From positions 1 through 21,236 of IMG/VR virus record IMGVR_UViG_3300036781_000527: a stretch of DNA of 21,236 nucleotides; one strand, 5' to 3'. Made by a program: the position numbers and the translations under genes. Below the pieces are notes generated by a model, which made no database searches, had not been told where the DNA came from, and saw only the letters and a program-made list of their open reading frames with translations. Below, one piece after another: positions 3,778-21,236 of the stretch (position 1 is its first letter; every line of letters starts with the position of its first letter). Source of the DNA: a virus.

Positions 3778-6700
3778 TCATCGCCGGTGCCGGATAGCGG
3801 CAATGTGAATTTGGCGGCGCAGCGTCGCCTCGGACTTCTCCCGGACCGGGTTGTTGATCGTGACGTCACCCATGACCGGGGCGTGGTTGACCGTGTTGTT
3901 CACGACCGTCGGCACCCGGCCGGTCAGTTCCTGCGCGTCCGGCGACACCATGGACATGACCTGCGGGGCGGTCGCCGCGGAGAGGCCCTTGTAGAGCGAT
4001 TCCATGCCGCGCTCGTTGAAGTCCTGCAGGAACATCTTGGCGCCGGGTTCCTCCACCTTGGAACGACGGATGACCATCTCGCCGGGGGTGACCCAGGACA
4101 GCGCCTTGTCCTCGACACCCTGGAAGACACCCTGGATCAGGCCACCGGACATCTTCCGGTCGATGAACGCGGTCTTCAGATTGCTGAGGATCTCACCCGG
4201 ATGGCTCAGCCAGTAGACGAACTCGTGCTTACCCATGGCGGCGAAGAAGTTCGTGAAGGGCGTGATCAGAGCGTTTTTGAGGAAGGTTCCGATTTTCCCG
4301 AACGCCGCCGGCAACTTGTCGGTGAAGAAGCCTGGAATGGTCTTGGTGAAGAAGTCAGTGATCGGGTCTTTGACGTGCTTGCCGAACCAGGTCCCAACGC
4401 TGGAGAACCAGCCGGGGATGGTCTTGGTGAAGAAGCCCGGGATTTCCTCGATCCAGTTGATGAATGGGTCGAGCAACGTCGACTTGAGCCACTTCCAGCC
4501 CTGAAGTGCCAGACCCGGCAGGGTCTTAGTGAAGAACCCCAGGACCTTCAGCGGCAGATCGATGTACCAGAACTTGAGGAAGGCCAGGTACGCCTTCAGG
4601 AGGAACTCGACGCCCTTGAGCGCATAGCCGGGCAAGGTGACGAACAGGAACTTAAGGACCGTGGCCGGCAGCGTGACGAACCAGAACTTCAGGAAGTCTT
4701 CAAAGCCGTGCAGGACGGCCTTTCCCGCCTTGAGGGCCAAACCGCCGAGGCTGCTGAAGAAGCCGCCGATCTTGCTGCCGAGGAACTTGACGAAGTCGGC
4801 GATCCCGGAGAGAGCGCCCTTGAAACCGTCGGCGATGAGGCTGCCGATATTGGCGAGCTTCTTCTCGACGAAGTCACGGAGGTTCTTGTCCTTGAACAGG
4901 CTGTAGACGCCGCCGATGGCGCCGCCGACGGCGCCACCCACGACGGTGCCGACGCCGGGGATGACCGAGCCGATCGTGGCGCCGATCCCGGCGCCCTGCG
5001 CGACCGCTCCCAGGCCACGCTGGAGGCTGCCCTTGTCCTTGTCACTCTTGACGAACTTGTTGATCAGGTAGTCGCCGCCGAGGCTGGCCGCCGCGCCGGC
5101 AACGATGCCCCCGATGCCGCCGACAGCTCCTCGGGCCAGGCCGCCTCCCAGCCTGCCGACCAGGCCCAGCTTGCTGCCGCCGAGCTTGGCGACGTCCTCG
5201 ATGCCTTCCTCGGCGACGCCGGCCGCCTTGCCCGCCTTGCCTCCCCTGAAGATCCTGGACAGCAGGCTGCCGCCTTTGCCGCCCTTGCTGCCGGCGACGT
5301 CGTCGAGAACGTCCTCACCCTCGCTGAGCGCGGCGTCGGCCAGGCCGGCGGCCTTGCCGCCCTTACCCCGGCTGAAGACACGGCTGAGCAGGCTGCCCTT
5401 CTTGCCGCTGCTCTTGCCGACGTCGTCCAGCTCGTCCTCGACACTGGACAGGCCACGTCGGGCCTTTTTGCCGGGCTTCTTCTCCTTGTCCCGGTCGGGC
5501 AGGCCCGATAGTTGCTGACCGCCACCGGCCTGTCCCAGGGCGGCGTCGTAACCGGAGACGTAGCCTTCCTCGTACTCCGCTTCGTCACCGAGACCGCCGG
5601 AGCCGGTGGCCGTCCGACCGCTGAGCAGGCTGCCGGTGCCGATGGCGCCGAGGTCGTTGCCACCACTGAGGAACGGGGCACCCACGGCTCGACCAACCGC
5701 GCCGAGTCCGCCGAGCAGGCCCTTACGGACCCTGGTGGCCCTGCTGGGCGTGGCAACCGAGGCGGGCTTGTACTCGGGCAGGTCGAGCGGCCGGAAAGGA
5801 TGCTTGATCGGCGCCGTGGCCGCCATCCGGCCGCCGGGACCGCGCTGCTGCGCCGGCTTGGCGACGGTGTAACGGTCCTGCAGTCCCGGGATTACCTGGG
5901 TCTTGCCGGTGCGGGTCGGTGCCTTGTACGGGTCGGCGGTCGGCTCGTAGACGTTGTACGCCTCGCTCGCGGCCGGCGGCCGGGCGACGGTGTAGTCGTC
6001 GAAGGTGCCGGTCGGCAGCGGCGTGTTGCGTGGAAGGACCTTGCCCCGGGCGTCGCGCTGCTGCGGGGGCAGCGGCACGGTGTAGCTGTCCTGCAGACCG
6101 GGGATGGTCTGCTTCTTGCCGGTGCGGGTCGGCGCCTTGTAGTTGTCCGGGACCGTGGAGTAACTGGTGGCGTAGTCGGGCAGGCCCTGCGGATAGGTGC
6201 GCTGGGCCGGGACCTGGCTGATGTCGTACGGCTCGAAGGTGCGGCTGCCCTGGCTGGTGTCGTGCGTACCCAGTTCCGGGCCCTCGACGGGGCCGAGGAT
6301 CGGCTGGGTCGCCGGGGTCGGGTACAGGGCACCGCCGAGCGCGCTGAGACCCCGACCGAAGCTCTTGGTAACCCGCCGCACGCGGCTCTGCTTGGCCGGG
6401 GTGGGCGTCGAGACCGGCGTCGGCACGGCTGTGCCCAGCTCGTCGGCGACCTGGCTCTCCAGCTTGCCAAGCGGGGTGCTGCCCCGAACAACGCGCCGGG
6501 TGCGGGCTTCCTTAGCAGCCTTGGTCCGGGCAGCCTTGCCTTCGGCGCTATTCGGGTCGATGCCTTCGTCGAGCGAGGTCGGTCCGAAGTCGATCGGGTC
6601 AAGCCGGGAAGTCGGGCGCTTCGGGATCTGGGTGGTGCGGCTGCGCCGGTTCGATGTCGTGTTGTCACCGGGGCGCGCGCCACCGCCTCCTCCGGGGCCG

Positions 6701-9700
6701 CCAGGACGTGGCTTGTCATCGCCACCACCTGTGCCGCCCGATCCCCCGGTGCCGCCACGACTGATTCGCCCGGTGTTGATGGCGATCTCTTTGAGCAGCA
6801 CCTCCATCCGCGACAGATAGGGCAGCACGCCGCTGGTCGCGCCGTCGTGGCCGGTCGGGGAAACTGTCGGCCGAGCACTGCCGGACCGGCCAGTGCTGCC
6901 AGCCTTCTTGGCCTTCTTGGTGTCTTTCCGGAGGTTTCGCCGCTCGGCCGAGGTGCCGGACGGCCGGAGTAGCGCCTTGTCCTTGGCCGAGTCGACCTTT
7001 CCCTGCAAGTAACTCTTGGCCCTGCCCGGCCTGGTCTCGCCCCCGGTATCCCCGATCGACCCGGCGATGTTGCCGATACCCTTGGCTGCCTTGATCAGGT
7101 TAGTGATCAAGGCGGTGAAGCCGGAGATCTTGGCGACCAGGGCAGCGCCGAAGATCAGCGCGATGGCGCCGCCGAGGACCTTGAACGCGTCCGTCGCGAA
7201 GGGGACGTTCTTGCCGATCCACTCGACGACCGAAGCGATCTTGCTGAGGAGGCCGCCAGCCCATTCCAGGGTGGAGCCGAAAATGCTGAGCGCGGTGGTC
7301 CCACCGTGGTCGAAGAACTTGTTCAGTCCCTCGAAGATGCCGCCGATGGCGGCGCCGAGTTTACTGACCAGCCCGGACGAGGAAAGTTTGCCGAAGATGT
7401 CGTCGAGCTTCGGCAGCCACTGCGTCGAAATCGCCTTCAGCAGACTGCTGGCTTCGGACATGTTGCGGTTGTCGCTGAACAGTTTCCCGATGAAACCAGC
7501 AGCCGACGAAATAAACCCGACGACGTCATGCAGCAGCGGCTTAACGTTCTTGAGCCACTTCTGGAACCCCCCGTTGGGGTCCTGAGCCTGCTCACCCAGC
7601 TTTTTGAAGTTCGCCGACGCGTTGAGCAGGCCCTTGTTGAACCAGGTGGTGAAGTCGTCCTTGCCGCCGGTCGGCTGGTTCAGTGCCTTGAAGAATCCGC
7701 CGATGCCGGCGGCGAAGTTCTTGATGACCGGCCAGAGCTCCGACATCCGCTTCTGGGTAATCGACAAGAACCAAACAAGATCCTCGCGGCCCTTACTGTT
7801 CTTGTCGTTGAAGACACTGTCGAAGCCTTTCGCCATGCCGACGATGCCGTCGACGACGAAGTCGGTGAACGGGCGTGCAACCTCGACGATCGCTTTGAAA
7901 CCGTTGGCGGCGGCCAGTGCGGCGTCACCGAGCTTGGCGATGATGTCGCCGCTCTTTTCGCCTTGCGCGGCGAAGAATGCCTTCCAATCCGGGTTGGTGA
8001 ACAGGTCGAGTGCGTTCTGAGCGAACCGGCCGATAGCGACACTGGCCGGCTGCAAGAAGGTGGACAACTCATCGAGAAGGTCCGCGAACTTGCCGGTCTC
8101 TCCGGAGATGGGGCCGAAGATGTTTTCCGACAGCTGGTCCCGCATCTTCTTGTACGGGCCGTTCATCAAATCGAGAATGGCCTGCGTGACCTTGCGGGTC
8201 TGCGGGGGCAGCTTGGCCAGGTCGGCTGCGAGGGTGGCGGCGGCCGAACCGCCCGCCGCGGCGTCCCTCTGGGCCTTCTGGGTGGCAGTGATGTCCTTCT
8301 GCCACTGCAGGTAGGCCAGGTCGATCTTGCGGGCGGAGTCCTCGACATTCCGGTTGGCCTGGACAACCTCGTCGGCCCCGTCGACGCCCTTGGCGAACGC
8401 TTCGCTGGCGTCCTCCCGGGTCCGTTTGGCCTGAGTGGCCTGATCGGACTGGTCGAACAGGGCACCTTGGACGTTGTGCAGGGCCTCGCGCCGGTCGAGG
8501 CTGCTGGCCGTCGGGTCGGCCATCGCGCGGCGCGCTTGCTGCTCGGCGGACTCGACGTCGAGGGAGGCGCCTTCCTGCTCGAAGCGCAGCTTCTTCAGCG
8601 CGGTGGTGTAGTCCTCAAGCTGCCGGGTGGCGTCCTTACGGGCGTCCTTGAGCGCCTGCTCGGCGCGGGGGGCGTCGGCCTGGGCCCGCTTGTAGTCGAT
8701 ATACGCCTGTTGCTGGTTGTCCAGGGCGATCTTGTAGTCGTTCGCCGCGTCCCTGGCCGCGTTGGTGGTCTGGGTGGCCTCTTTCTGGGCGGCCGAGTAG
8801 GCGCTGAAGATGTTCGACAGCGGCTTCATCACGATGGCGAGGGCGCCGAAGCCGGCGATGGCGGCACCGATCAGGCCGGGCAGCGCCGCGAAGCCGCCGG
8901 CCAGCGCGCCGATGTTGCTGGCCAGTGCGAGGGCTGCGGCTCCGACGGCGCCCAGGATCGCGGCGAGCGGTCCGAGGGCGGCGATGACGGCGACAATCAG
9001 GGACTGGAAGCTGATCAGGTGACTGGTGCCGTTCTGCAGGACCCCGGTCAGCTTGTTGCCCATGGTGTTGAAGTTGCTGATCAGGTCGCTGAACAGGCTG
9101 TTGCCGGAGCCGCCCTGGCGGGGCCGGTTGACGCTGTCGATGTAGCCGCGGACCTGCTGGGTGATCTTGCCGAGCTTGCTGGCGGCGTCTTCGGCGCCGT
9201 CGCCCACGCTGCGGCTGATCCGCTTGCCCAGGTCGCCGAACAGCTTCTCGACGCGGCCGGTGACCGTGGTCGCCTTGCGCTCGATCTCGTCGAATTCGGT
9301 GGTGTTGGCGGCCGTGGTGGCGGCCCGACGGGCGGACGCCTTGGGCGCACTAAGGACCGACCGGCCGACGCCGACCGCGACGTCGGAGACGACCGAGCCG
9401 ATGGAGCCGATGACGGTCTGCTTGCTCTGCTTGCTCTTGGCCTCCCGCTCGGCGGCGCGGGCGCGGGCCTCGGCTGCGGCGGCGATGCGCTGTTCGAGGA
9501 GTTCACCTTGCTGGCTGGCCCGAGTGATGTCGTTTTCGAGGGCCTTGGTCTGCCGGGTGGTGGCGACACGGCGCTGGCGCAGGGTCTCCTGCTCCGTCAG
9601 CGCCCGGTTCTGCCGGCTCGTCTCGGCGGTCAGGCGCTGCTCTTCGGCCACGGCTTCGCGGCTGGCAGCTGCGGCCTCGCGGGACTGCGACGCCGAAGCA

Positions 9701-11101: not shown

Positions 11102-11548
11102 TTTTCCCAGTGCCTGAATGTCGGCGGACTCGCGTTTGACGATGGCCTCGATGATCGTGACGATGTCGTCGAGTTCGGGGTTCTCCAGCTCCGCGTCGAG
11201 GGCTTCCCACAGCATGGTGTTGCGCTCGACGTCCTGCTTGTTCAGGCCGCGACGCTCGATCAGCCCGACCGGATAGCACATGGAACGGATGAACTCGATG
11301 GTCTCGTCCTCGGCGTCCGGGATGGACATGACGACCACCGACAGCAGCCGACCCATGAACTCGTCGGTGTCAACGTCTTCGAGGTCGAAGATGCCGGAGT
11401 CCCGCAGCCCCGGCAGGGCGCCGTGCGTGACGATCCGCAACAGCTTGAAGAATTGGCGGGCTTTCAACGACTCCAGCTGGACCGTCATCCCGGACCGCAA
11501 CCTGGCGGTCTCCGGAATCGGGTCCAGCTGATCGAGTTCGTTCGCCAT
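10862..11548 (-). CDS. Tail assembly chaperone, frame-0 product (G-like)
   Basis: This 228-residue product starts at ATG 11546-11548, with GGAGG five bases upstream. Residues 1-150 form the conserved-looking part: LKARQFFKLLRIVTHGAL, FMGRLLSVVVMSIPDAED and WEALDAELENPELDDIVTII, typical of the helical G-type chaperone. It lies between the tail tube and tape measure genes, the invariant place for this gene. At codons 147-149 the frame passes through the slippery heptamer. Ribosomes that do not slip continue for about 79 codons through a Ser/Thr/Pro/Arg-rich tail (TSTSPSSAES, RSRSVESVNAS) that looks unconserved. The unusually long overlap means the unshifted protein carries an extra tail not usual for short G proteins. 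The role is to coat the tape measure during tail assembly. Confidence 0.9.
   Translation of the reverse strand: MANELDQLDPIPETARLRSGMTVQLESLKARQFFKLLRIVTHGALPGLRDSGIFDLEDVDTDEFMGRLLSVVVMSIPDAEDETIEFIRSMCYPVGLIERRGLNKQDVERNTMLWEALDAELENPELDDIVTIIEAIVKRESADIQALGKRLASMFKLAEKTGQVSVSPSPKTSTSPSSAESPAPSTSSRRNTGGKTRTSSRSRSVESVNASLLSENDSITHVGSASIG
11102..11108 (-). promoter_or_regulatory. Programmed -1 frameshift slippery site (GGGAAAA)
   Basis: The minus strand reads CTG GGA AAA CGC in frame 0, so the heptamer G GGA AAA fits the X XXY YYZ rule. A slip of one base gives GGG AAA ACG and enters exactly the frame that encodes the T-like half. The lambda G-T site has the closely related GGGAAAG. Placement about 150 codons into the chaperone gene is typical. 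I did not find an unambiguous stimulatory hairpin by eye. Confidence 0.9.
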
Positions 11549-12214: not shown

Positions 12215-12502
12215 TTATCTCAAGGCTTGGCCGATCGCGCAGCACTGCTGATCGTGGCTACAGGTCCGATACCGGCACATCCAGATCTCTTCGACCCGGG
12301 TATTTACCAGCTCGCCAACGAAATTGAAGCTGTGGTACACGCGGACAAAGTCGTTCGTCCGTCGGCGAATCGCTTTCGCGCAGTCGGTACACGTGAACTC
12401 GATGAGGTTATTGGGCAGGTATTTGCCGAACTCTTCGCCGAGCTTGAGCTTCGTGAATAGCTTCTGCGGGCCGACCGGGCAGCGCACCTCGACGGTGTTC
12501 AC
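12215..12502 (-). CDS. Small cysteine-containing (zinc-ribbon-like) phage protein
   Basis: This 95-residue protein starts at GTG 12500-12502, overlapping the glycosyltransferase stop as GTGA; a longer frame to 12628 lies inside the glycosyltransferase. It begins VNTVEVRCPVGPQKLFTKLK. It then has LIEFTCTDCAKAIRRRTNDF, with a CxxC pair, and ends MCRYRTCSHDQQCC. The layout (RCP...K-L/F, then CxxCxKxxRR, then RVxHxF) is the form of a small zinc-ribbon protein often found in actinophages, sometimes compared with Mu Com. Only one Cys is in the first knuckle position (RCPVG), so a complete four-ligand site would need the C-terminal cysteines. Translational coupling to the glycosyltransferase suggests a linked role. 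Function is unknown; DNA or RNA binding is a guess from the fold. Confidence 0.75.
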   Translation of the reverse strand: MNTVEVRCPVGPQKLFTKLKLGEEFGKYLPNNLIEFTCTDCAKAIRRRTNDFVRVYHSFNFVGELVNTRVEEIWMCRYRTCSHDQQCCAIGQALR

Positions 12503-13593
12503 AGCAGGACGGCCTCCTCCTGCGCGCGTGCCTTCGCCACCCGGTACTTGTGCAGGACCCGTTCGCCGCGCTCGTCGAGTTCGCCGACTTTGTCCATCAA
12601 CCGGTCGATAACTTTCGGCCAGGAACACATGTTGGGGATGATGTTGGCGGCCAGGTCACCCTTGCGTTCCAGCTCAGAACGATGCTGGTAGCAGTGGATC
12701 ATCAGCTGCTTGAGGTGGTCCTTGCTGGCCTTGGCCCACTGACACTGCGGCCGGCTCTTGAGCAGCGGCTCCAGTTTGTAGTCCAGCGGGTAGGCGTAGG
12801 CCGAGGAAAGCCATTGGGTGTGCCCGCCCCAGTTGGTGCCGATCACGGTGCCGCCGGTGGACAGCATCTCCAGGGCCGGCAGGTTCTTGCCTTCGCCCCG
12901 GCTCGGAGCGAGCAGGACATGGTTGGCGGTGTAGAACTCACGCATGGTGTGCTCGGGCCACACGTCGTAGTAGAGGTGCAGGCCGGGCACGAGGTCCTGC
13001 ATCTTGGAATGCAGGCCGGGGGTGACGGTCTTGACGTGCAACTCGATGTCGAGTTCGGGCTGCTCCTCCCGCAGCTCCCGGAACGCGTCGATCGCCACGA
13101 ACGGGTCCTTGCGGGGGCCGAGCGCGCCGACCATGCAGAACCGCAGGGTCTTGGCGTGCCAGTCGCGGTGCTGCTGCGGCCATTTGCGCGGCCAGTACCC
13201 ACCCTGGACGGTGGCCGCGTTCGTGCTGACATACGGGTCCAGCCCGGTGGTGGTCACACTGTCGTAGCCGACGACCAGGTCGTAGTCCTTGAGCCGCTTA
13301 CGCAGACTGGACCGGCCGTCGCAGTTGTCCAGCGTGGTCATCTCCCACATCGTGTGGGCCACGGTGACTACCGAGTTCGTCCTGGCGCTGCGACTGATCC
13401 CCAGGTTCGGCGGATCCCAGTGATGCAGCAGCATGTCGAACGGCGCGTCGAGCCGCTTACACAACAGCTCGGCCACCTCGGGTGGCAGCGGAGCCTGCAC
13501 GGCGGCCGGGTCGAGGTAGACGTCCACCCCGGCCTGAATGAAGGCTTGTGCGAGACCGATTCCGTCTCCGCCGTAACCGCTGTGCGGATTCAC
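12499..13593 (-). CDS. GT-B fold glycosyltransferase (GT4-like) in the tail operon
   Basis: The 364-residue frame from GTG 13591-13593 encodes a retaining GT-B glycosyltransferase of GT4 type. The N-terminal domain has SGYGGDGIGLAQAFIQAGVD, the glycine-rich loop after the first strand. MVGALGPRKDP and DIELHVKT mark the start of the C-terminal Rossmann domain. SRGEGKNLPALEMLSTGGT contains the E-x7-E motif (E234 and E242 in this numbering) that binds the nucleotide-sugar donor, followed by NWGGHTQWL. The first beta strand is missing with the GTG start; an in-frame CTG at 13617 restores it as (M)KLLLKSPV and has a better ribosome site, so the true product is probably 372 residues. Donor and acceptor are unknown. 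Its location between tail terminator and tube genes suggests glycosylation of virion proteins, as known in some mycobacteriophages. Confidence 0.9.
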   Translation of the reverse strand: MNPHSGYGGDGIGLAQAFIQAGVDVYLDPAAVQAPLPPEVAELLCKRLDAPFDMLLHHWDPPNLGISRSARTNSVVTVAHTMWEMTTLDNCDGRSSLRKRLKDYDLVVGYDSVTTTGLDPYVSTNAATVQGGYWPRKWPQQHRDWHAKTLRFCMVGALGPRKDPFVAIDAFRELREEQPELDIELHVKTVTPGLHSKMQDLVPGLHLYYDVWPEHTMREFYTANHVLLAPSRGEGKNLPALEMLSTGGTVIGTNWGGHTQWLSSAYAYPLDYKLEPLLKSRPQCQWAKASKDHLKQLMIHCYQHRSELERKGDLAANIIPNMCSWPKVIDRLMDKVGELDERGERVLHKYRVAKARAQEEAVLL

Positions 13594-14576: not shown

Positions 14577-14995
14577 CAGTTGTCCGCCCGCAGAAGGTTG
14601 GGTTGAAAGTTCTGGCTGACCTCGATGACCTGAACTTCCATGTGGTGCGCGGCAGCTCCGTAGCCCTGCGCGACGTCAGGCATCACCCGGGTCTCGAACG
14701 TGCCCTGGAACGGGCCGTCGATGATGTGGAACCGGTCGCCGGAGCGGATCTCGCCAGTCGGGTCGAAGATCATCAGCCCGACCCGGTCCGGGGCGCGGCC
14801 GGCGACCAGCGGCATCGGCTGGTCCTTGCCGGGCCGCTGGAAGACCAGGTCGATCCGGCACATCAACTCACCCGGCACGGCGAGGTAGGGGTCGACGACG
14901 GCCTCGATCTTCTGCCAGGTCTGGGTGGCGGCCCCGTCGGTCACCTGAACCCCCAACCTCAGGACCTCAACCCGGGTGTTGTAAAGCCAGCGCAT
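14576..14995 (-). CDS. Head closure (stopper) protein
   Basis: This 139-residue protein starts at ATG 14993-14995, overlapping the adaptor stop as TGATG; the frame reaches 15163 but that part lies inside the adaptor gene and is Arg/Gly-rich shadow. It begins MRWLYNTRVEVLRLGVQVTD and has VDPYLAVPGELMCRIDLVF, then GLMIFDPTGEIRSGDRFHII and FETRVMPDVAQGYGAAAHH. The order 'N-terminal strand with R-V-E-V, then P-x-G-E/L..R.D..F, then D..GDRF' matches short head-closure proteins of the SPP1 gp16/HK97 gp7 type, which plug the portal-adaptor channel after packaging. The role is inferred from this pattern and from position. Confidence 0.8.
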   Translation of the reverse strand: MRWLYNTRVEVLRLGVQVTDGAATQTWQKIEAVVDPYLAVPGELMCRIDLVFQRPGKDQPMPLVAGRAPDRVGLMIFDPTGEIRSGDRFHIIDGPFQGTFETRVMPDVAQGYGAAAHHMEVQVIEVSQNFQPNLLRADN

Positions 14996-15495
14996 CAGCT
15001 GATCCGGATGTACGGGGGCCGCTCCAGGTGGCCCCGCTCGACTGGGTTCTCGATCCGCAACCCGCCCGGCCCCTGCACCAGGCCGTCCTCGCGCGACGCG
15101 ATCGACCCGAACGCGGTCAGCGCGACATCCTTCTGCTCGAACAGGTCCATCGCGGTGGCCCACCAGAACAGCCCTGCCCCGAGATCGGTCTGACCCGTCG
15201 TCTTGCTGATCGTGTTGGACCGGCCGTAGCTGTAGGACGCGATCGTCTCGGTCTGGAACGGCGACGCCTTCAACGTCTGGTACGGCTGCTCCAGGATGAG
15301 CTTGTCGGCCATCTCCAGCACCGCGTACAACGCGACCTGGCTCAGGTCAGGGTCCTCCGGCCAGACCTCCAACCCGGTGGCCACGCTGAACATCAGCGTG
15401 GCCTGGGTCAGCGCGGTGTCCGCGTAGCCGCCGTAGGTGGCGGCCGGTCGGCCGGAGAAGTCGGCGAGGTTCTGCACGGTCGGGACGGGCAGCAT
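14995..15495 (-). CDS. Head-tail adaptor protein (gp6-like)
   Basis: This 166-residue protein starts at ATG 15493-15495; AAGGG lies seven bases upstream. It begins MLPVPTVQNLADFSGRPAAT and continues YADTALTQATLMFSVATGLE. It then has LYAVLEMADKLILEQPYQTL and the turn YSYGRSNTISKTTGQTDLG, and later GLFWWATAMDLFEQ. A helical N-terminal half with the 'L.QA.L.F..AT' pattern followed by a Ser/Tyr-rich hinge ('ETIASYSYGR') is the form of actinophage head-to-tail connector adaptors. These form the ring under the portal. It opens the coupled run of four neck genes. The family call is from pattern and order. Confidence 0.85.
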   Translation of the reverse strand: MLPVPTVQNLADFSGRPAATYGGYADTALTQATLMFSVATGLEVWPEDPDLSQVALYAVLEMADKLILEQPYQTLKASPFQTETIASYSYGRSNTISKTTGQTDLGAGLFWWATAMDLFEQKDVALTAFGSIASREDGLVQGPGGLRIENPVERGHLERPPYIRIS

Positions 15496-15511: not shown

Positions 15512-16174
15512 TCAGATGCCGGCAGGCAGGTGTGGCGCGGCCCGACGCTTACGAAGCTGCTCGGCCTTGTCGATCTCGGCCTGCGTGGGCGGCGCGATCA
15601 CGCTGTCGCCCTTCTCCGAACGCAGCGTCTCGAACGTCCCGTCGGCGTAGGACTTGCCGGGCCAGGGACCATTACGGAACATCACCTTGCCCCACCGCTC
15701 GGCCTGCCCGAACTCGTCCAGCCGCAGATCGAGCCAGGTCTGGCCCCGCCGGTTGAAGGTGTCCTTGTACGCCTGCCGGTTCGGCTCGAACTCCAGCTCC
15801 TCACCGCGATACCAGACCTTGCCCAGCGCGGTGAACCCGTCCTCCAGGATGTGGATCAGGATGTTGCTGCCGTCGCCCGGCTTGGCCAGTTCCTGGACCT
15901 GCACCCCGACGTCCTTACGGCCGGTCTCTCGAGCGAGCTGATCGCGCAGCCGCTTGATCTCCGCCTGCTCCGGGGTCAACTCGACATCCGGAATACCGGT
16001 CAGGACCACGTCGACGGAGGCTTCTCGATCTTCGGGCGCTTCTTCGTCGGCGGCCCGAAACTCTCGATCCGCCAGGTCCTCGGCTTCCTCGGCCACGGCC
16101 GGGCCGGCCTCAAACTCTGAGGCTGCGACGGCACGGGGCTGACGCCTGCCATTAGCGGGAACTCCTCGGGGCAT
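15512..16174 (-). CDS. Hypothetical protein preceding the head-tail adaptor
   Basis: This 220-residue protein starts at ATG 16172-16174; the frame is open to 16309 but the upstream part is Pro/Arg-rich and lacks a ribosome site, while GAAAGGTGG precedes the chosen ATG. Residues 1-90 are Ala/Glu/Asp-rich and acidic after a basic start (MPRGVPANGRRQPR), with a helical segment (ELTPEQAEIKRLRDQLARET). Residues about 95-220 look folded: GSNILIHILEDGFTALGKVW, then YRGEELEFEP and WLDLRLDEFGQAERWGKVMF. Proteins of this kind, with 'ILIHxLxDGFTAxGxVWYRGxELEF', occur beside the connector genes of actinophages, but I know no assigned function. A head or neck accessory role is likely from position. Confidence 0.75.
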   Translation of the reverse strand: MPRGVPANGRRQPRAVAASEFEAGPAVAEEAEDLADREFRAADEEAPEDREASVDVVLTGIPDVELTPEQAEIKRLRDQLARETGRKDVGVQVQELAKPGDGSNILIHILEDGFTALGKVWYRGEELEFEPNRQAYKDTFNRRGQTWLDLRLDEFGQAERWGKVMFRNGPWPGKSYADGTFETLRSEKGDSVIAPPTQAEIDKAEQLRKRRAAPHLPAGI

Positions 16175-16283
16175 GGTTGGCCACCACCTTTCACCGTCCT
16201 TATCGGTGACAGCCGGTGAGCCCGAGAATTGATGGACAGTCGGGCAGGCAGGGGCGGCGCGGGTCAGGCGACCCCGCAAGGCC

Positions 16284-16415
16284 CTACGGATCGGTGGTGT
16301 CGGTGTCACCCGGGCCAGCCGGGCCGGTGGTGGTGCTGCTGTCGGGCGCCTGGCCCTCCTCGACGCCCCCGCCGGTGTCGCTGGCGGCGGGTGCGTCGGT
16401 TGCTGGTGCGGTCAC
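16284..16415 (-). CDS. Small acidic Ser/Thr/Pro-rich ORF (43 residues)
   Basis: It starts at GTG 16413-16415, with a very good ribosome site (GGAAGGGG, 16430-16423, seven bases away), and stops at TAG 16284-16286. The product, VTAPATDAPAASDTGGGVEE and onward to DTDTTDP, is acidic, low-complexity and probably disordered. It is the first gene after the terminator at 16471-16493. An ATG at 16505 in the same frame runs through the terminator hairpin and is unlikely to be the start. No family is recognised; the strong ribosome site is the main support. Confidence 0.5.
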   Translation of the reverse strand: MTAPATDAPAASDTGGGVEEGQAPDSSTTTGPAGPGDTDTTDP

Positions 16416-16466
16416 GGTGGGGCCCCTTCCGGGCAAGGTCCGGGAAACTGCTGGGCTGCGGGCATG

Positions 16467-16493
16467 AAAACGGCCCCGGGGACACCGGGGCCG
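16467..16493 (-). terminator. Intrinsic terminator between propeller and neck modules
   Basis: On the minus strand CGGCCCCGG (16493-16485), a five-base loop, then CCGGGGCCG (16479-16471) form a perfect nine-base-pair GC stem, followed directly by TTTT (16470-16467). It lies about 90 bases after the second propeller stop and before the small acidic ORF. This would end transcription of the fibre/propeller module, wholly or partly. Confidence 0.75.
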
Positions 16494-16581
16494 GACACGG
16501 TTCATCGCAGGTCAGGCGATGACCTGCGGCGGTCAATATTGGCAGCGCATCGCCCGGGGGTTCGGGCTCAGGCACCCCGTC

Positions 16582-17604
16582 TCAGCTGCGTTCTACCGGG
16601 TATATCTGCCCGGTCACGTGCCGGGCGCCAAACGCGGCACCCGTGCGGTACACCGACAGAAACGGGCTGATGGAGTGGGCGACGGCCAGGTGCCCGCCGG
16701 ACGGGGACCAGCCCACGCCGTTGCCGAGGCCGGGAGGCAGGGTCGCCGGGTTGGCGAGCTTGGTCAGGGTGGTGCCGTCGAACGCGTACACCGACACGAA
16801 CGGGCTGCTCAGCTGGCCGACGGCCAGCTGAGCGCCCGACGGCGACCACGCCGCCGCGTACGCGCCACCGGCGGGCACGACGGCCGGGTTGGCGAGCTTG
16901 GTCAGGGTGGTGCCGTCGAACGCGTACACCGACAGATACGGGGAGGTGGTACCGGGGACGGCCAGGTAATTCCCGGACGCCGACCACGCCACCGCCGTCA
17001 CGCCGCCGGGAGGCAGGGTCGCCGGGTCGGCGAGCTTGGTCAAGGTGGTGCCGTCGAACGCGTACACCGACACGAACGGGCTGGTATTGCTCCCGATGGC
17101 CAAGTAGCCCGACAACGACCACGCCACCGCCGTCCCGGTGCCGGCAGGCAGGGTCGCCGGGTTGGCGAGCTTGGTCAAGGTGGTGCCGTCGAACGCGTAC
17201 ACCGACATGAACGGTGTGACGGTGTGGGCGACGGCCAGGTGGCCGCCGGACGGGGACCAGTCCACGCCGTTGCCGTTGCCGGTGGGCAGGGTCGCCGGGT
17301 TGGCGAGCTTGGTCAAGGTGGTGCCGTTGAACGCGTACACCGATACGTACGGTGTGGTGGTGTGGACGACGGCCAGCTGGTTACCCGACGGCGACCACGC
17401 CACGTCGACCCCGGCTCCGACAGGCATGACGGCCGGGTCGGCGAGCTTAGTCAGGGTGGTCCCGTCGAACGCGTACACCGACAGGTTCGAGGAGCTCCCG
17501 CTGTTGGTGACGGCCAGGTGAGCGCCCGACGGGGACCAGGCCGCTCCCGACCCGGTGCCGGCGGGCAGGACGGTTTCCGGGGTCAGAGCGTAGATGTCGG
17601 GCAC
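16582..17604 (-). CDS. Seven-bladed beta-propeller protein, copy 2 (WD40/YVTN-like repeats)
   Basis: This 340-residue protein starts at GTG 17602-17604, with GGAG nine bases upstream. After a short opening (MPDIYALTPETVLPAGTGSG) it has seven units of about 45 residues. Each unit begins A-W-S-P-S-G (one W-S-L-S-G and one W-S-A-S-G), then L-A-V, then P-F/Y-x-S-V-Y-A-F-D-G-T-T-L-T-K-L and A-N/D-P-A-x-x-P. The WSPSG strand plus SVYAFDG strand per unit fits a seven-bladed propeller, with the N-terminal strand pairing with the last blade (SVYRTGAAFGARHVTGQIY). No catalytic residues are evident. It follows its paralogue at 17657-18664 and precedes the terminator. Likely a virion surface or receptor/glycan-binding protein; this role is inferred. 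No signal peptide or membrane segment is visible. Confidence 0.85.
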   Translation of the reverse strand: MPDIYALTPETVLPAGTGSGAAWSPSGAHLAVTNSGSSSNLSVYAFDGTTLTKLADPAVMPVGAGVDVAWSPSGNQLAVVHTTTPYVSVYAFNGTTLTKLANPATLPTGNGNGVDWSPSGGHLAVAHTVTPFMSVYAFDGTTLTKLANPATLPAGTGTAVAWSLSGYLAIGSNTSPFVSVYAFDGTTLTKLADPATLPPGGVTAVAWSASGNYLAVPGTTSPYLSVYAFDGTTLTKLANPAVVPAGGAYAAAWSPSGAQLAVGQLSSPFVSVYAFDGTTLTKLANPATLPPGLGNGVGWSPSGGHLAVAHSISPFLSVYRTGAAFGARHVTGQIYPVERS

Positions 17605-18625
17605 GTGGGTGCACTCCGTCGCCGTAGAGAAGGAACGGGGACAACCCGCGAGGGGGTCACGGGTACACCTGCCCGGTCACGTGCCGGGTAGCGACCACGG
17701 CACCCGTGCGGTACACCGACATGAACGGTGTGAATCCGTGGGTGATGGCCAGGTGAGCGCCCGACGGGGACCAGGCCGCTCCCGTCCCGCTGCTAACTGG
17801 CAGGGTCGCCGGATTAGCGGCCTTGGTCAGGGTGCTGCCGTTGAACGCATACACCGACATGAACGGTGTGGTGGTGTGGGCGACGGCCAGCTGAGCGCCC
17901 GACGGTGACCAGTCCACTCCGCTGCCGTTGCCGGTAGGCAGGGTCGCCGGGTCGCTGATCTTGGTCAGGGTGCTGCCGTTGAACGCGTACACCGACATGA
18001 ACGGTGTGGTGGTGTGGACGACGGCCAAATGAGCGCCGGACGGCGACCACGCCGCCGACGTCGCGCTGCTGGCCGGCAGGGTCGCCGGGTTGGCGATCTT
18101 GGTCAAGGTGGTGCCGTTAAACGCATACACCGACATGAACGGTGTAGTGAAGTGAGCGATGGCCAGGTGAGCGCCGGACGGTGACCACGCCGCGCCCTTC
18201 CCGGTGCCGGTGGGCAGGACCGCCGGGTTGGCGAGCTTGGTCAAGGTGGTGCCGTTGAACGCGTACACCGACACGAACGGGGTGCTGCTGTGACCGATGG
18301 CCAAGTGGTTACCCGACGGCGCCCACGCCACCGCGTTCCCGCTACCGGTGGGCAGGGTCGCCGGGTCGGCGAGCTTGGTCAGGGTGCTGCCGTCGAACGC
18401 GTACACCGACACGAACGGGCTGGCCCCGGAGGCGATGGCCAGGTGGTTACCCGACGGCGACCACGCCGCGCCGTTCGCGCTGGCGATAGTCAGGATCGCC
18501 GGATCGGCGACCAGGGTGGTGCCGTCGAACGCGTACACCGACAGGCCCGTGGAGCCCCCGCTGTTGGTGACGGCCAGGTGAGCGCCGGACGGCGACCACG
18601 CCGCGCCCGTCGCGCCGCCGGTGGG
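16630..18625 (-). repeat. Tandem beta-propeller blade repeats (14 units in two genes)
   Basis: A unit of about 138 bases recurs seven times in each of two genes. Its plus-strand hallmark is CGAACGCGTACACCGACA, which encodes SVYAFDG, and is almost unchanged in most units. A shared string CTGCCCGGTCACGTGCCGGG lies at the 3' ends of both genes (16606-16625 and 17669-17688). Unit similarity at DNA level implies recent duplication or ongoing homogenisation. Confidence 0.9.
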
Positions 18626-18664
18626 CAGGGGGGTTTCCACGTTCAGGGCGTAGATGTCGGCCAT
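17657..18664 (-). CDS. Seven-bladed beta-propeller protein, copy 1 (WD40/YVTN-like repeats)
   Basis: This 335-residue protein starts at ATG 18662-18664, with GGAG eight bases upstream. It opens MADIYALNVETPLPTGGATG, nearly the same frame as the second copy. Seven units follow: each has W-S-P-S-G (one W-A-P-S-G), then H-L-A-I/V, then T-P-F-x-S-V-Y-A-F-N/D-G-T/S-T-L-T-K. The first unit lacks the T-K-L part (FDGTTLVADPAIL), a small deletion. The protein ends SVYRTGAVVATRHVTGQVYP, matching the end of copy 2. It is encoded seven bases after the 178-residue fibre-like gene, so it belongs to the fibre module. The seven-bladed fold is inferred from unit count and pattern. The role is probably a decoration or receptor-binding one, but it has not been identified. 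Confidence 0.85.
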   Translation of the reverse strand: MADIYALNVETPLPTGGATGAAWSPSGAHLAVTNSGGSTGLSVYAFDGTTLVADPAILTIASANGAAWSPSGNHLAIASGASPFVSVYAFDGSTLTKLADPATLPTGSGNAVAWAPSGNHLAIGHSSTPFVSVYAFNGTTLTKLANPAVLPTGTGKGAAWSPSGAHLAIAHFTTPFMSVYAFNGTTLTKIANPATLPASSATSAAWSPSGAHLAVVHTTTPFMSVYAFNGSTLTKISDPATLPTGNGSGVDWSPSGAQLAVAHTTTPFMSVYAFNGSTLTKAANPATLPVSSGTGAAWSPSGAHLAITHGFTPFMSVYRTGAVVATRHVTGQVYP

Positions 18665-18670
18665 GACGCT

Positions 18671-19207
18671 TTACTCCACTGCAACGTAGGTGAGGGTGAC
18701 CGTGACCGCCGTCGCGGCGGTCGGAGTGACCGTGATCGGGATCGCCGTCGACGGGACCGTCTCCATGGAGTAGCCGATGGGGACCGGGGACAGCTTCTGC
18801 ACCGCGCTGCCCGGGGTCAGGTATTCCAGGACCAGCCCGCAATTGTCCGGCACGGCGGTGGTGATGGCCCTGGCCGTGTCGGCGCTCTGGCTGGCCGCAT
18901 CGGTGTAGACCCGCACCCGGGCGGCGGCTGAGGTCTGCACCGCCAGCAGCCGGTATCCGGTCGCCATGGTGATCGTGCCGGTGTAGTTCGTCCCGGCGAC
19001 CGCCCCCGCCGTGGTGTACGTCGCGGTGAGCCTGGCCGGGGAGGCACCGGCGGCCGGGGTCGCCCACCCGGCCGCGTAGTCGGTGCCGGCCGTCTTGGCC
19101 AGGACCTGCCCGAGGGTGCCGCCGGGCGGCAGCTGACGGACGCTGTTGTCCAGCGCGAGCAGGGCCCCGCCGAAGCCCTGCCGGGACTGGTTCTGCCGGG
19201 TCGCCAT
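18671..19207 (-). CDS. Fibre-like virion protein with GGTLGQVLAK motif
   Basis: This 178-residue protein starts at ATG 19205-19207, four bases after the previous stop. Residues about 26-51, LPPGGTLGQVLAKTAGTDYA then AGWATP, are a common phage fibre motif (lppGGt-GqvLaKts-tdy--gW) that acts as a short collar or linker. Residues about 57-178 form a beta-rich domain: ARLTATYTTAGAVAGTNYTG, ARVRVYTDAASQSADTAR and a closing ITVTPTAATAVTVTLTYVAVE-type strand. The 'arvRvYtd-asqsaDtaR' segment resembles a widespread virion beta-domain with unknown ligand. The N terminus (MATRQNQSRQGFGG) is short and basic, probably for docking. A fibre or baseplate-like decorating role is inferred. Confidence 0.8.
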   Translation of the reverse strand: MATRQNQSRQGFGGALLALDNSVRQLPPGGTLGQVLAKTAGTDYAAGWATPAAGASPARLTATYTTAGAVAGTNYTGTITMATGYRLLAVQTSAAARVRVYTDAASQSADTARAITTAVPDNCGLVLEYLTPGSAVQKLSPVPIGYSMETVPSTAIPITVTPTAATAVTVTLTYVAVE

Positions 19208-19211
19208 CGGC

Positions 19212-20117
19212 TCACATCTTCGAGACGACGGCGTGGAACTCGTTCGCGGCCCACACCACGTCGGGTTTGAGGGTGACCGTGTTCAGGTCGGTGTGCTCGA
19301 CGTACACGTCGACCTCGTCGTACGGGGACGCGACACGGTACACCACCACGTTCACCGCCCGGGTGCCGAAGCTGTGGGTGATCGCGAACGAGGTCAAGGC
19401 CCCGTTGCCGAGGTCCTGCTCGACCGGGGCGGTCCCGGCCGACGCGACCCCGATGAAGCTGAACGCGGCGGTGCTGGTGCCCAGCGTGAACGTGTCGTTG
19501 GTCAGCAACGCGAACTTGTCGGCGCTGGTGCCTTCCCGCACGATCCAGTAGGAGCCGACGACGGCCTCCCCAGCGGCGTCCCAGTTGCCGGCCCTGGCCA
19601 TGGCGGTCCCGGCCGACGTCCACGTGTAGGGGCCGTTCTGGGTGCCGGTGGTCTGCCCGGCCAGCAAGAAGATGTCACCGTTGGCGGGCGTGATGCCGTC
19701 AATGGTGGCCGGAGCGGACGCGATGTTGACGTTGGCCGTCGTGGCCGCCCGCACGGTGCCCTTGAGAACCTGCCCGGAAGCGACACCAGCCAACGACGTG
19801 TCGACGTAGTTGCGGGTGGCCGCGTCCTGCGCCGAGGTTGGGTCGGCCAGGCTGGCGATGCGCTGCCCACCGAGGCCGACGGCCGCGGCAGGGGCGGCCA
19901 GCTGGTCCAGGCGGCTGGTGCGGACCTGGGTGTCGAAGTCGCTGATCGTCGCGGCGAGCTGGGTGCCGGTGTGGTTGGCCCGCGACCGAGCGTAGTCGCG
20001 GGCGGTCTCCAAGTCGACCTGGCGGGTGGCGTCCGTCGACCCGCCCGTCGGGACTCCCAGGTTGATGACTTTGAGCCCGTTCATGTCCTTGTTGTTGGCT
20101 GCCTTAATGGCTGTCAT
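19212..20117 (-). CDS. Fibre protein with HTGTQ collar motif and ATTANVNIA domain
   Basis: This 301-residue protein starts at ATG 20115-20117, with GAGG nine bases upstream. Residues 1-45 include LKVINLGVPTGGSTDATRQV, a fibre docking repeat. Residues 48-60 read NHTGTQLAATISDF, a known fibre collar motif. IASLADPTSAQDAATRNYVD at about 88-107 is a second repeat of the 'A-x-D-P-x-x-A-x-D-A-A-T-x-x-Y-V-D' type. Residues 117-226 hold the widespread domain with VRAATTANVNIA, IDGITPANGDIFLLAGQT and NGPYTWT. Residues about 235-301 are a C-terminal domain (TSFAITHSFGTRAVNVVVYR, SPYDEVDVYVEHTDLNTVTL) paralogous to the end of the 20530 gene. It is a trimeric tail or head fibre by motif; receptor unknown. 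Confidence 0.88.
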   Translation of the reverse strand: MTAIKAANNKDMNGLKVINLGVPTGGSTDATRQVDLETARDYARSRANHTGTQLAATISDFDTQVRTSRLDQLAAPAAAVGLGGQRIASLADPTSAQDAATRNYVDTSLAGVASGQVLKGTVRAATTANVNIASAPATIDGITPANGDIFLLAGQTTGTQNGPYTWTSAGTAMARAGNWDAAGEAVVGSYWIVREGTSADKFALLTNDTFTLGTSTAAFSFIGVASAGTAPVEQDLGNGALTSFAITHSFGTRAVNVVVYRVASPYDEVDVYVEHTDLNTVTLKPDVVWAANEFHAVVSKM

Positions 20118-20139: not shown

Positions 20140-20490
20140 TCACGATAGGTAGGCGGTTCCGGCGATACTCAGGTCGAATGACAGCCGTAGTGACACGCCC
20201 GGATCGATGTACTGCGTGACGGCGTCGTCGATGGTGTCTCCATCGGACGTGATGACCTTCAGGCCGCCCGGGTCGTAGCCCAGGTTGTGGGTGATCGTCC
20301 AGACGGTGCCTGCGGTTGACTGCACATGCTGGTACCCGCTTGTCGCGCCGCCGCCGCCGCCGCCGGCTTCCAAGGTGGCCACCCGGGCCGACAGCGCGGC
20401 GTCAGCGCTGTCCACGTAGCCCCTGGCAACGGCGTGGACGGAGGATGTCGCCGCCGGAATCGTCAGGGGACTACCGAGGAACTTGGGCAT
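20140..20490 (-). CDS. Small fibre protein with coiled coil, Gly linker and ITHNLG domain
   Basis: This 116-residue protein starts at ATG 20488-20490 with a full AAGGAGG ribosome site (20505-20499) eight bases upstream, the best in the window. It begins MPKFLGSPLTIPAATSSVHA. A short trimer-type coiled coil (SADAALSARVATLEA, residues about 28-42) and six glycines follow. Residues about 53-116 form the beta-domain HVQSTAGTVWTITHNLGYDP then GLKVITSDGDTID and LRLSFDLSIAGTAYLS, a form widespread at phage fibre ends. Layout (N-terminal docking, coiled coil, glycine hinge, terminal beta-domain) is that of a short trimeric fibre. The function is inferred by family resemblance. Confidence 0.85.
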   Translation of the reverse strand: MPKFLGSPLTIPAATSSVHAVARGYVDSADAALSARVATLEAGGGGGGATSGYQHVQSTAGTVWTITHNLGYDPGGLKVITSDGDTIDDAVTQYIDPGVSLRLSFDLSIAGTAYLS

Positions 20491-20529: not shown

Positions 20530-21236
20530 TCAGCCGACGACCACGACGCGGTACTGCCCGGAGGTAGGGGCCTGACCGAACACGACGGTCACCGTGTTGA
20601 CGTCGGTGCGCTGCACCTCGGCGTAGACGGTGTCGTAGGGGGCGATGGCGTTGTAGATCTCGACCTGCACGTCGAGGGTGTTCAGGTTGTGCACGACCGC
20701 GATGCTGGTCGCGGTGCCGTCACCGACCGACCCCGCGAACCGGCGGGCCACCACGCTCGGGTCGATCGCGATGTCGGCGTCGACCAGGATGCCGAGGCCG
20801 GCCACGGCCGCCAGACCGGTCGCGGTGGTCGCCAGACCACCGTGCACGTCGGTGCTGATACCGACACCGGTGGCGTCGACGTCCAAGCCGTCATCGGCGC
20901 GGACCACCAGGCCCACACCCGCCGCGGTGGTCGCCAGGGCACCGTTGGGGTCGGTGGTGACACCCACGCCGGTGGCGTCGACGTCGAGGCCGTCGTCGGG
21001 CCGCAGCACCACGCTGACGCCGGTGGCGTCGACGGCCAGACCGGCGTTGGTCTTGGGGACCACCGCGATGCCGCCGGCGCCGACGCTCAGACCGCCGGCC
21101 GGGTCGGCAACGGCGGTCAGGCCGCTGCCGTCGACCTTGAGACCGGACGGGCTGGCCAGCTTCGCGCCGATACCCGGTGCGGTGACCTGCAGACCGCCGG
21201 CCGGGTCGGCGACCGCCTGCACGCCGGTCGCGTCGG
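20530..21236 (-). CDS. Fibre with 17-residue repeat shaft and C-terminal HNL domain (5' end outside window)
   Basis: The frame is open past the window edge, so the N terminus is missing; the GTG at 21222 is not a real start because the repeat continues above it. At least eight 17-residue units follow without indels, with the theme D-G-L-x-V-D-A-T-G-V and D-P-x-G-G-L. Examples are DDGLDVDATGVGV, NGALATTAAGVGL and GGLATTATGL. The stop is TGA 20530-20532. After a bridge (ILVDADIAIDPSVVARRFAG) a terminal domain of about 65 residues has TSIAVVHNLNTLDVQVEIY, APYDTVYAEVQRTDVNTVTV and YRVVVVG, paralogous to the end of the 301-residue fibre. The regular Gly-Leu/Val units resemble a triple beta-spiral or similar trimeric shaft (adenovirus fibre is the classic case). 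This fold is an inference. Confidence 0.85.
   Translation of the reverse strand, partial: DATGVQAVADPAGGLQVTAPGIGAKLASPSGLKVDGSGLTAVADPAGGLSVGAGGIAVVPKTNAGLAVDATGVSVVLRPDDGLDVDATGVGVTTDPNGALATTAAGVGLVVRADDGLDVDATGVGISTDVHGGLATTATGLAAVAGLGILVDADIAIDPSVVARRFAGSVGDGTATSIAVVHNLNTLDVQVEIYNAIAPYDTVYAEVQRTDVNTVTVVFGQAPTSGQYRVVVVG
20815..21236 (-). repeat. 51-base tandem repeat encoding the fibre shaft
   Basis: The string GGTGGCGTCGAC (encoding VDATG) recurs at 20869 and 20971, with a near copy at 21022; further diverged copies fall near 21124 and 21224. These spacings are 102, 51, 102 and about 100-102 bases, so a 51-base period (17 codons) holds over about eight units and continues past the window end. 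Confidence 0.9.

Follow-up and report, generated by a model that had tools for sequence, protein, structure and literature searches.

The window, by which we mean the whole stretch of DNA analysed here, is the 21,236-base IMG/VR virus record IMGVR_UViG_3300036781_000527 from an uncultured bacterial virus. Its recognisable genes lie on the minus strand. Two neighbouring genes of 335 and 340 codons, called A and B below, had been pointed out in a first-pass annotation and are indeed found between a series of fibre genes and a conserved gene. In the order in which they are read, the features of this region are the following.

20530..21234, minus strand: beta-repeat fibre gene, incomplete at the window edge, with a C-terminal domain of PHROG_2647 / PHROG_2824 type
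20140..20490, minus strand: short fibre gene, 116 aa, with an N-terminus common to the collagen-like fibres of sister phages
19212..20117, minus strand: fibre gene, 301 aa, matching PHROG_2647 ('head decoration') at E 1.6e-102
18671..19207, minus strand: fibre C-terminal-domain gene, 178 aa, with its stop 6 nt before A
17657..18664, minus strand: propeller gene A, 335 aa, ATG start, seven predicted WD40-type blades of ~46 aa, C-terminal tail ...VATRHVTGQVYP and stop
17605..17656, minus strand: A-B intergenic spacer, 52 nt, with weak similarity to the fibre gene upstream, at the 3' end of that gene
16582..17604, minus strand: propeller gene B, 340 aa, GTG start, seven predicted WD40-type blades, C-terminal tail ...GARHVTGQIYPVERS and stop
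15512..16309, minus strand: conserved gene after the cassette, true start probably at 16174 (MPRGVP)
14995..15495, minus strand: putative head-tail connector gene, used as a synteny anchor

From B to the likely start of the conserved gene, ~400 nt (16175-16581) contain no clear gene, and the corresponding gap is much shorter in the sister phage.

A and B each contain a 138-bp (46-codon) tandem repeat in 6.7 copies, with Tandem Repeats Finder scores of 896 in A and 797 in B, which is far above chance. In the proteins, the repeats appear as seven W[SA]xSG and seven SVY motifs each, spaced by 45-47 aa. The first-pass annotation had described seven WSPSG...SVYAFDG units; the number of units is correct, but the motif is less uniform. 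SVYAF[DN]G occurs in only six units per protein, the seventh reading SVYRTG followed by the common tail RHVTGQ[IV]YP, and some copies of WSPSG are altered to WAPSG, WSLSG or WSASG. The description of the blades as nearly identical is too strong, as the mean pairwise blade identity is 58-60% with the caps included and ~70% for inner blades 2-6. Over their whole length, A and B are 66% identical.

Predicted fold and variable face

The Pfam propeller models PF23389, PF12894 and PF08662 match both A and B above their cut-offs. The scores with the WD40 repeat model PF00400 are 20.5 and 21.2 bits, below its cut-off of 27, which the propellers of the sister phage reach with 51.4 and 44.3 bits; A and B are therefore classed as WD40-type by their fold and by the related Pfam models, not by PF00400. 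Structure prediction, as proposed in the first-pass annotation, gave an AlphaFold2 model of B with a pLDDT of 79.5 and a pTM of 0.84, based on four input sequences (B and three relatives) and containing four strands in most blades. In this model, residues 1-11 have a pLDDT below 50, the last 18 residues are unreliable, and the ring-closing N-terminal strand is not resolved. When the model was searched with Foldseek, the best solved structures were the designed seven-bladed protein nvWrap-T (top match, E 1.3e-15) and the WD40 protein Ciao1 (TM 0.79). The motif units, the AlphaFold2 model and the similarity to seven-bladed WD40 proteins all agree with seven four-stranded blades in a closed toroid, leaving aside the closing strand, and on these predictions A and B are almost certainly seven-bladed propellers of the WD40 type.

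Similar folds are predicted elsewhere among viruses. Foldseek matched 309 predicted viral proteins at E <= 1e-3, several of the best being WD40/YVTN proteins of uncultured Caudovirales, so that the propeller fold is not rare in phages. PHROG_19311, a family of unknown function, matches A and B with E-values of 4e-27 and 2e-24 and represents the same blade family; its profile has 1023 positions and is matched over part of its length only, whereas A and B are free-standing. Matches of A and B to toxin families in PHROG were dismissed as chance, being weak and local (E 4e-5 or worse, over ~40 to 65 residues of a blade).

The differences between blades are concentrated on one face. Over 21 inner blades of four proteins, the loops b-c and d-a, counted with positions 1 and 2 of the blade that follows, have an average entropy of 1.27 bits, compared with 0.39 bits for the loops a-b and c-d (permutation p 0.003). 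We note that the assignment of loops b-c and d-a to the top face follows general WD40 topology and the model built from four sequences. A single variable face as predicted in this way fits a propeller with one ligand-binding face and one docking face, but proves neither. Positional entropy was the measure computed for the blades, and conserved residues of a catalytic or sugar-binding kind were not identified.

Duplication and homogenisation of the twin genes

Sister contigs were reached with the major tail protein as bait. The sister phage IMGVR_UViG_3300036823_000075 contains the same propeller pair with gene-specific C-terminal tails: the 3' end of A is shared with the first propeller gene of the sister, and that of B with the second. 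This orthology of the tails indicates that the pair is older than the split of the window phage and its sister. In the sister, the spacer between the two propeller genes includes (at L093 4799-4864) a second copy of the sequence that ends the fibre gene upstream, with a local score of 56 that was reached by 0/2000 shuffles (maximum 39), so that what was duplicated was a unit of fibre-gene 3' end and propeller. The relic is clear only in the sister phage, and the trace in the A-B spacer of the window is weak. Judged from these comparisons, the twin is an old tandem duplication, in which fibre end and propeller were copied together before the two phages separated.

The bodies of the two genes have a different history from their tails. 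Synonymous differences between blades (pS) amount to 0.23-0.29 within and between A and B and to 0.445 between phages, where codon usage alone would give about 0.50-0.55. Homogenisation is weaker in the sister phage, whose blades have a pS of 0.40-0.47. A position-by-position orthology of the blades of A and B was rejected for blades 2-6, which are 65% identical at the same position and 68% at different positions, and an exact match of 51 nt connects blade 3 of A with blade 2 of B, out of register. Taken together, the low pS, the lack of positional orthology and the off-register match suggest that sequence is exchanged among the bodies, whereas each tail remains private to its gene. Such exchange, from blade to blade and from twin to twin, would keep the bodies alike and leave the gene-specific tails distinct. 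The idea of a diversifying pair, raised in the first-pass annotation, thus holds in one respect only: the blades are homogenised, but the variation that does exist between them lies mainly on one predicted face. A diversity-generating retroelement was considered in this connection, and no reverse transcriptase was noticed among the genes of the window. This concerted evolution with conserved private tails raises the question of why two copies are kept.

With inner blades at ~70% amino acid identity and the low pS given above, A and B belong with the highly repetitive, recently amplified propellers. WD40-type propellers of this kind likewise have seven similar blades and blade amplification, and the survey describing them notes viral members (PMC9218822, PMC6805158). 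The word 'phage' is absent from the main text of the survey, whereas A and B form a tandem pair that is tied to fibre genes and exchanges sequence. MW202701, a phage sequence from our searches, encodes a single protein of 714 aa with about fourteen blades, which fits the peaks at 7 and 14 blades reported in the survey (PMC9218822, PMC6805158).

Surroundings of the pair in sister and unrelated phages

The location in a structural operon beside fibre genes, as described in the first-pass annotation, is borne out by the upstream neighbours, which are fibre-like and include the strong PHROG_2647 match at 19212..20117. The best relatives of that fibre, 54-59% identical, come from Gordonia phages and cluster C mycobacteriophages; those whose position was looked up have the capsid gene close by. 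The relative in Gordonia phage UBSmoodge has its place between the capsid gene and the head-to-tail adaptor gene, and the one in Myrna, annotated as head decoration, comes downstream of the capsid gene. This 'head decoration' label of PHROG_2647 is an annotation only, and the Myrna section of a cryo-EM paper names a minor capsid (accessory) protein that is different from the PHROG_2647-type protein (PMC7150772). The 178-aa gene just before A is 85% identical to the C-terminus of a 982-aa fibre of the sister.

The window ends before its own capsid gene, and the position of the cassette relative to the capsid gene is seen in sister contigs. L105 contains, in order, a capsid gene (3-509), a beta-repeat fibre, the 982-aa fibre (3891-6839; Pfam CBM_5_12 at E 6.5e-21, with a collagen match below its cut-off), two propellers (6845-7873 and 7940-8965) and the conserved gene at 9001. 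The equivalent cassette of L014 has a capsid gene at its far end, and in L105, L014 and L108 the cassette is preceded by capsid and followed by head-completion genes. Other relatives lack the cassette. The conserved gene (15512..16309 in the window) is directly downstream of the capsid gene in them: in L099, L111, L112 and L119, which have a similar capsid protein, the gap between the two is too short for cargo or nearly so, L096 has only short ORFs there, and no annotated cassette was found at the corresponding place in Arthrobacter phages KellEzio and DanielleIgnace. On these observations, the cassette is an accessory element inserted among the head genes. The phage itself is taken to be a large siphovirus, and its host is probably an actinobacterium, as judged from the cultured relatives, which are Microbacterium and Arthrobacter phages. 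Of these, Microbacterium phage Magritte is closest to the window phage; it gave no propeller match. It is fair to say, with the first-pass annotation, that such a pair is outside the standard siphovirus plan; among close relatives, however, a propeller pair or trio recurs in the same slot.

The contents of this slot differ between relatives. L104, whose conserved gene is 70% identical, has at the position of the twin two tandem propellers (379 and 380 aa) of another type with SxDGxTW (Asp-box-like) repeats, and L095/L108 have three propellers of this Asp-box type. Pfam EPTP matches the propellers of L104 and of L095/L108 above its cut-off, and a model of an L095 propeller (pLDDT 74.5, pTM 0.67) has YCF48 as its top Foldseek match. 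In L138, a beta-helix protein (7441-8649) stands immediately before the conserved gene, and one conserved gene further on are a GH16 protein in L098 (5341-6165) and the GDPD protein gp27 of Magritte (L012 13629-16094). The beta-helix, GH16 and GDPD proteins are all inserted among head-completion genes. The predicted cargo of this slot and of the one nearby consists of adhesive or glycan-active folds or, for GDPD, of an enzyme acting on phosphodiesters. The fact that the pair or trio is kept in place while the propeller family is swapped is less like an ordinary structural part and suggests a module for sticking to surfaces that can be exchanged.

The first-pass annotation had called for a search of phage sequences for the blade. 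Scanning viral contigs with B alone gave no match, a two-sequence alignment gave one weak match, and a four-sequence alignment gave 12 loci; neighbouring genes were a better bait for relatives than protein B or the two-sequence alignment. The bacterial genomes searched gave only two weak matches, and no bacterial source can be named. In the window, A starts 6 nt behind the fibre gene, the immediate downstream position expected of a fibre-tip adhesin. In eleven other listed loci, which include near-duplicates and one of the Asp-box type (L104), the distance from the end of one ORF to the start of the propeller ORF behind it is between -52 and +5 nt, and most of these preceding ORFs match fibre or structural PHROGs. 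Pseudomonas phage POR1 is a cultured phage with a propeller behind a fibre, in its case a collagen-like gene. In L165, L167 and L169, a 113-aa ORF separates fibre and propeller. This other phage group (L165/L166, L167, L169) has two propellers each, which on sequence is a second occurrence of the paired layout. The two propellers, of ~355 aa, flank an ORF of ~100 aa and come after fibre genes (L165 7550-10059, L167 7461-9924, L169 5407-7881). The propeller may also be fused to its neighbour: in CGphi29 it is joined to a region partly matching an annotated tail fibre, and in ZRG1 to a tail-terminator-like domain.

Possible role of the propellers

We propose, with a probability of about 0.5, that A and B are two propeller adhesins, each with its own gene, at the end of a fibre cassette among the head genes, most likely docked on head fibres and binding a ligand. 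Association of A and B with virion fibres is quite probable in our judgement, and both a placement on the head rather than the tail and an adhesive role appear reasonably probable. The upstream genes would make beta-repeat or collagen-like fibres, most likely head fibres since the cassette follows the capsid gene. The propellers would most likely dock on the fibre, perhaps at its tip. The gp38 adhesin of T2-like phages, encoded by a separate gene directly behind the fibre gene, caps the long tail fibres in this way. Like gp38, A has its own gene behind a fibre gene, but fold and location differ, and the likeness is one of layout. In A and B the conserved face would dock, and the variable one would take up a ligand of repetitive structure, most likely a host surface glycan. 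On head fibres, binding would be multivalent and probably reversible. Head decoration or receptor/glycan binding, as suggested in the first-pass annotation, is still the best reading, in view of the sister cassettes between capsid and head-completion genes and of the fibre-propeller adjacency or fusion in unrelated phages.

Capsid-attached proteins that aid host binding and add little to shell stability are known, namely phi29 gp8.5, T4 Hoc and the collagen-like SPP1 gp12 (PMC7602432). None of these is reported with a propeller in that review, which lists five main folds of decoration proteins without the propeller (PMC7602432), whereas A and B are predicted propellers. In our search of the literature, no phage propeller serving to decorate a capsid was found. 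More tentatively, and somewhat against the odds, the relatives may share a head-anchored, exchangeable propeller slot, in which capsid fibres are tipped with paired propellers, WD40-type and YCF48/Asp-box-type propellers interchange without loss of the pair or trio, and the twins undergo concerted evolution. If this is true, the propeller fold would take a capsid-decoration role that is missing from the main folds of the review (PMC7602432). The part of head fibres in phage host finding is poorly known, and a fixed slot allows a comparison of sisters in which it is empty or holds a beta-helix, a WD40-type pair, or an Asp-box-type pair or trio, which makes the contribution of adhesive modules testable.

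The fibres and propellers could instead belong to the tail or neck despite the head-region location of their genes, which we consider unlikely. Collagen parts of the fibres match 'tail fiber' PHROGs, and the propeller of L163/L164 is an exception in that it follows a tape-measure-like gene and a 184-aa gene, a placement by which the blade family is not tied to the head. In addition, the known phage propellers are parts of adhesins on the tail or at a vertex: phi11 Gp45 (five blades), PRD1 P2 and PhiKZ gp131C (seven blades) are used, or proposed to be used, at the end that contacts the host (PMC4901313). They are domains of baseplate or other receptor-binding proteins, whereas A and B are separate paired genes in the head-gene region, and the likeness is one of fold use. 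The fold is known in phages, and what is unusual is the paired, exchangeable arrangement. Against a tail location, separate tape-measure and distal-tail genes are present in the window, a good way downstream of the cassette, the sister cassettes lie between capsid and head-completion genes, and the nearest full fibre is the PHROG_2647 protein.

Genes just 3' of fibre genes often encode chaperones, and the propeller ORF either overlaps the ORF before it or starts right behind it, so A and B might be fibre assembly or folding factors that are absent from the mature virion. The fusions to fibre-like (CGphi29) and tail-terminator-like (ZRG1) sequence and the replacement of the WD40-type family by another propeller family in the same slot make this improbable, and duplicated proteins with one variable face would be unusual for a chaperone. 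It is equally improbable that the propellers are cement, that is, decoration proteins that stabilise the capsid and bind no ligand. Their genes adjoin the capsid gene and many decoration proteins are cement (PMC7602432), but relatives whose capsid protein is similar (for example L099, L111, L112 and L119) lack the propellers, other proteins replace the propellers in the slot, and the propellers have a variable face. Least probable is a cytoplasmic role as accessory (moron) proteins that act on the infected host: propellers of the WD40 kind frequently serve as scaffolds inside cells, but the close, nearly overlapping linkage to fibre genes, seen in several phage groups, and the fusions to virion-type sequences (CGphi29, ZRG1) speak against it.

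Three other features of the window were observed. A glycosyltransferase gene (12499-13593) lies just before the major tail protein region; it is present in all syntenic relatives checked, kept also in the cassette-less Arthrobacter phages, and may glycosylate virion proteins. A slippery GGGAAAA at 11108 within the tail assembly chaperone gene fits the usual -1 frameshift into ORF 11279-10617. Downstream of the distal tail genes, a 536-aa protein without a Pfam match (367-1977) is a candidate for an ordinary tail-tip adhesin.
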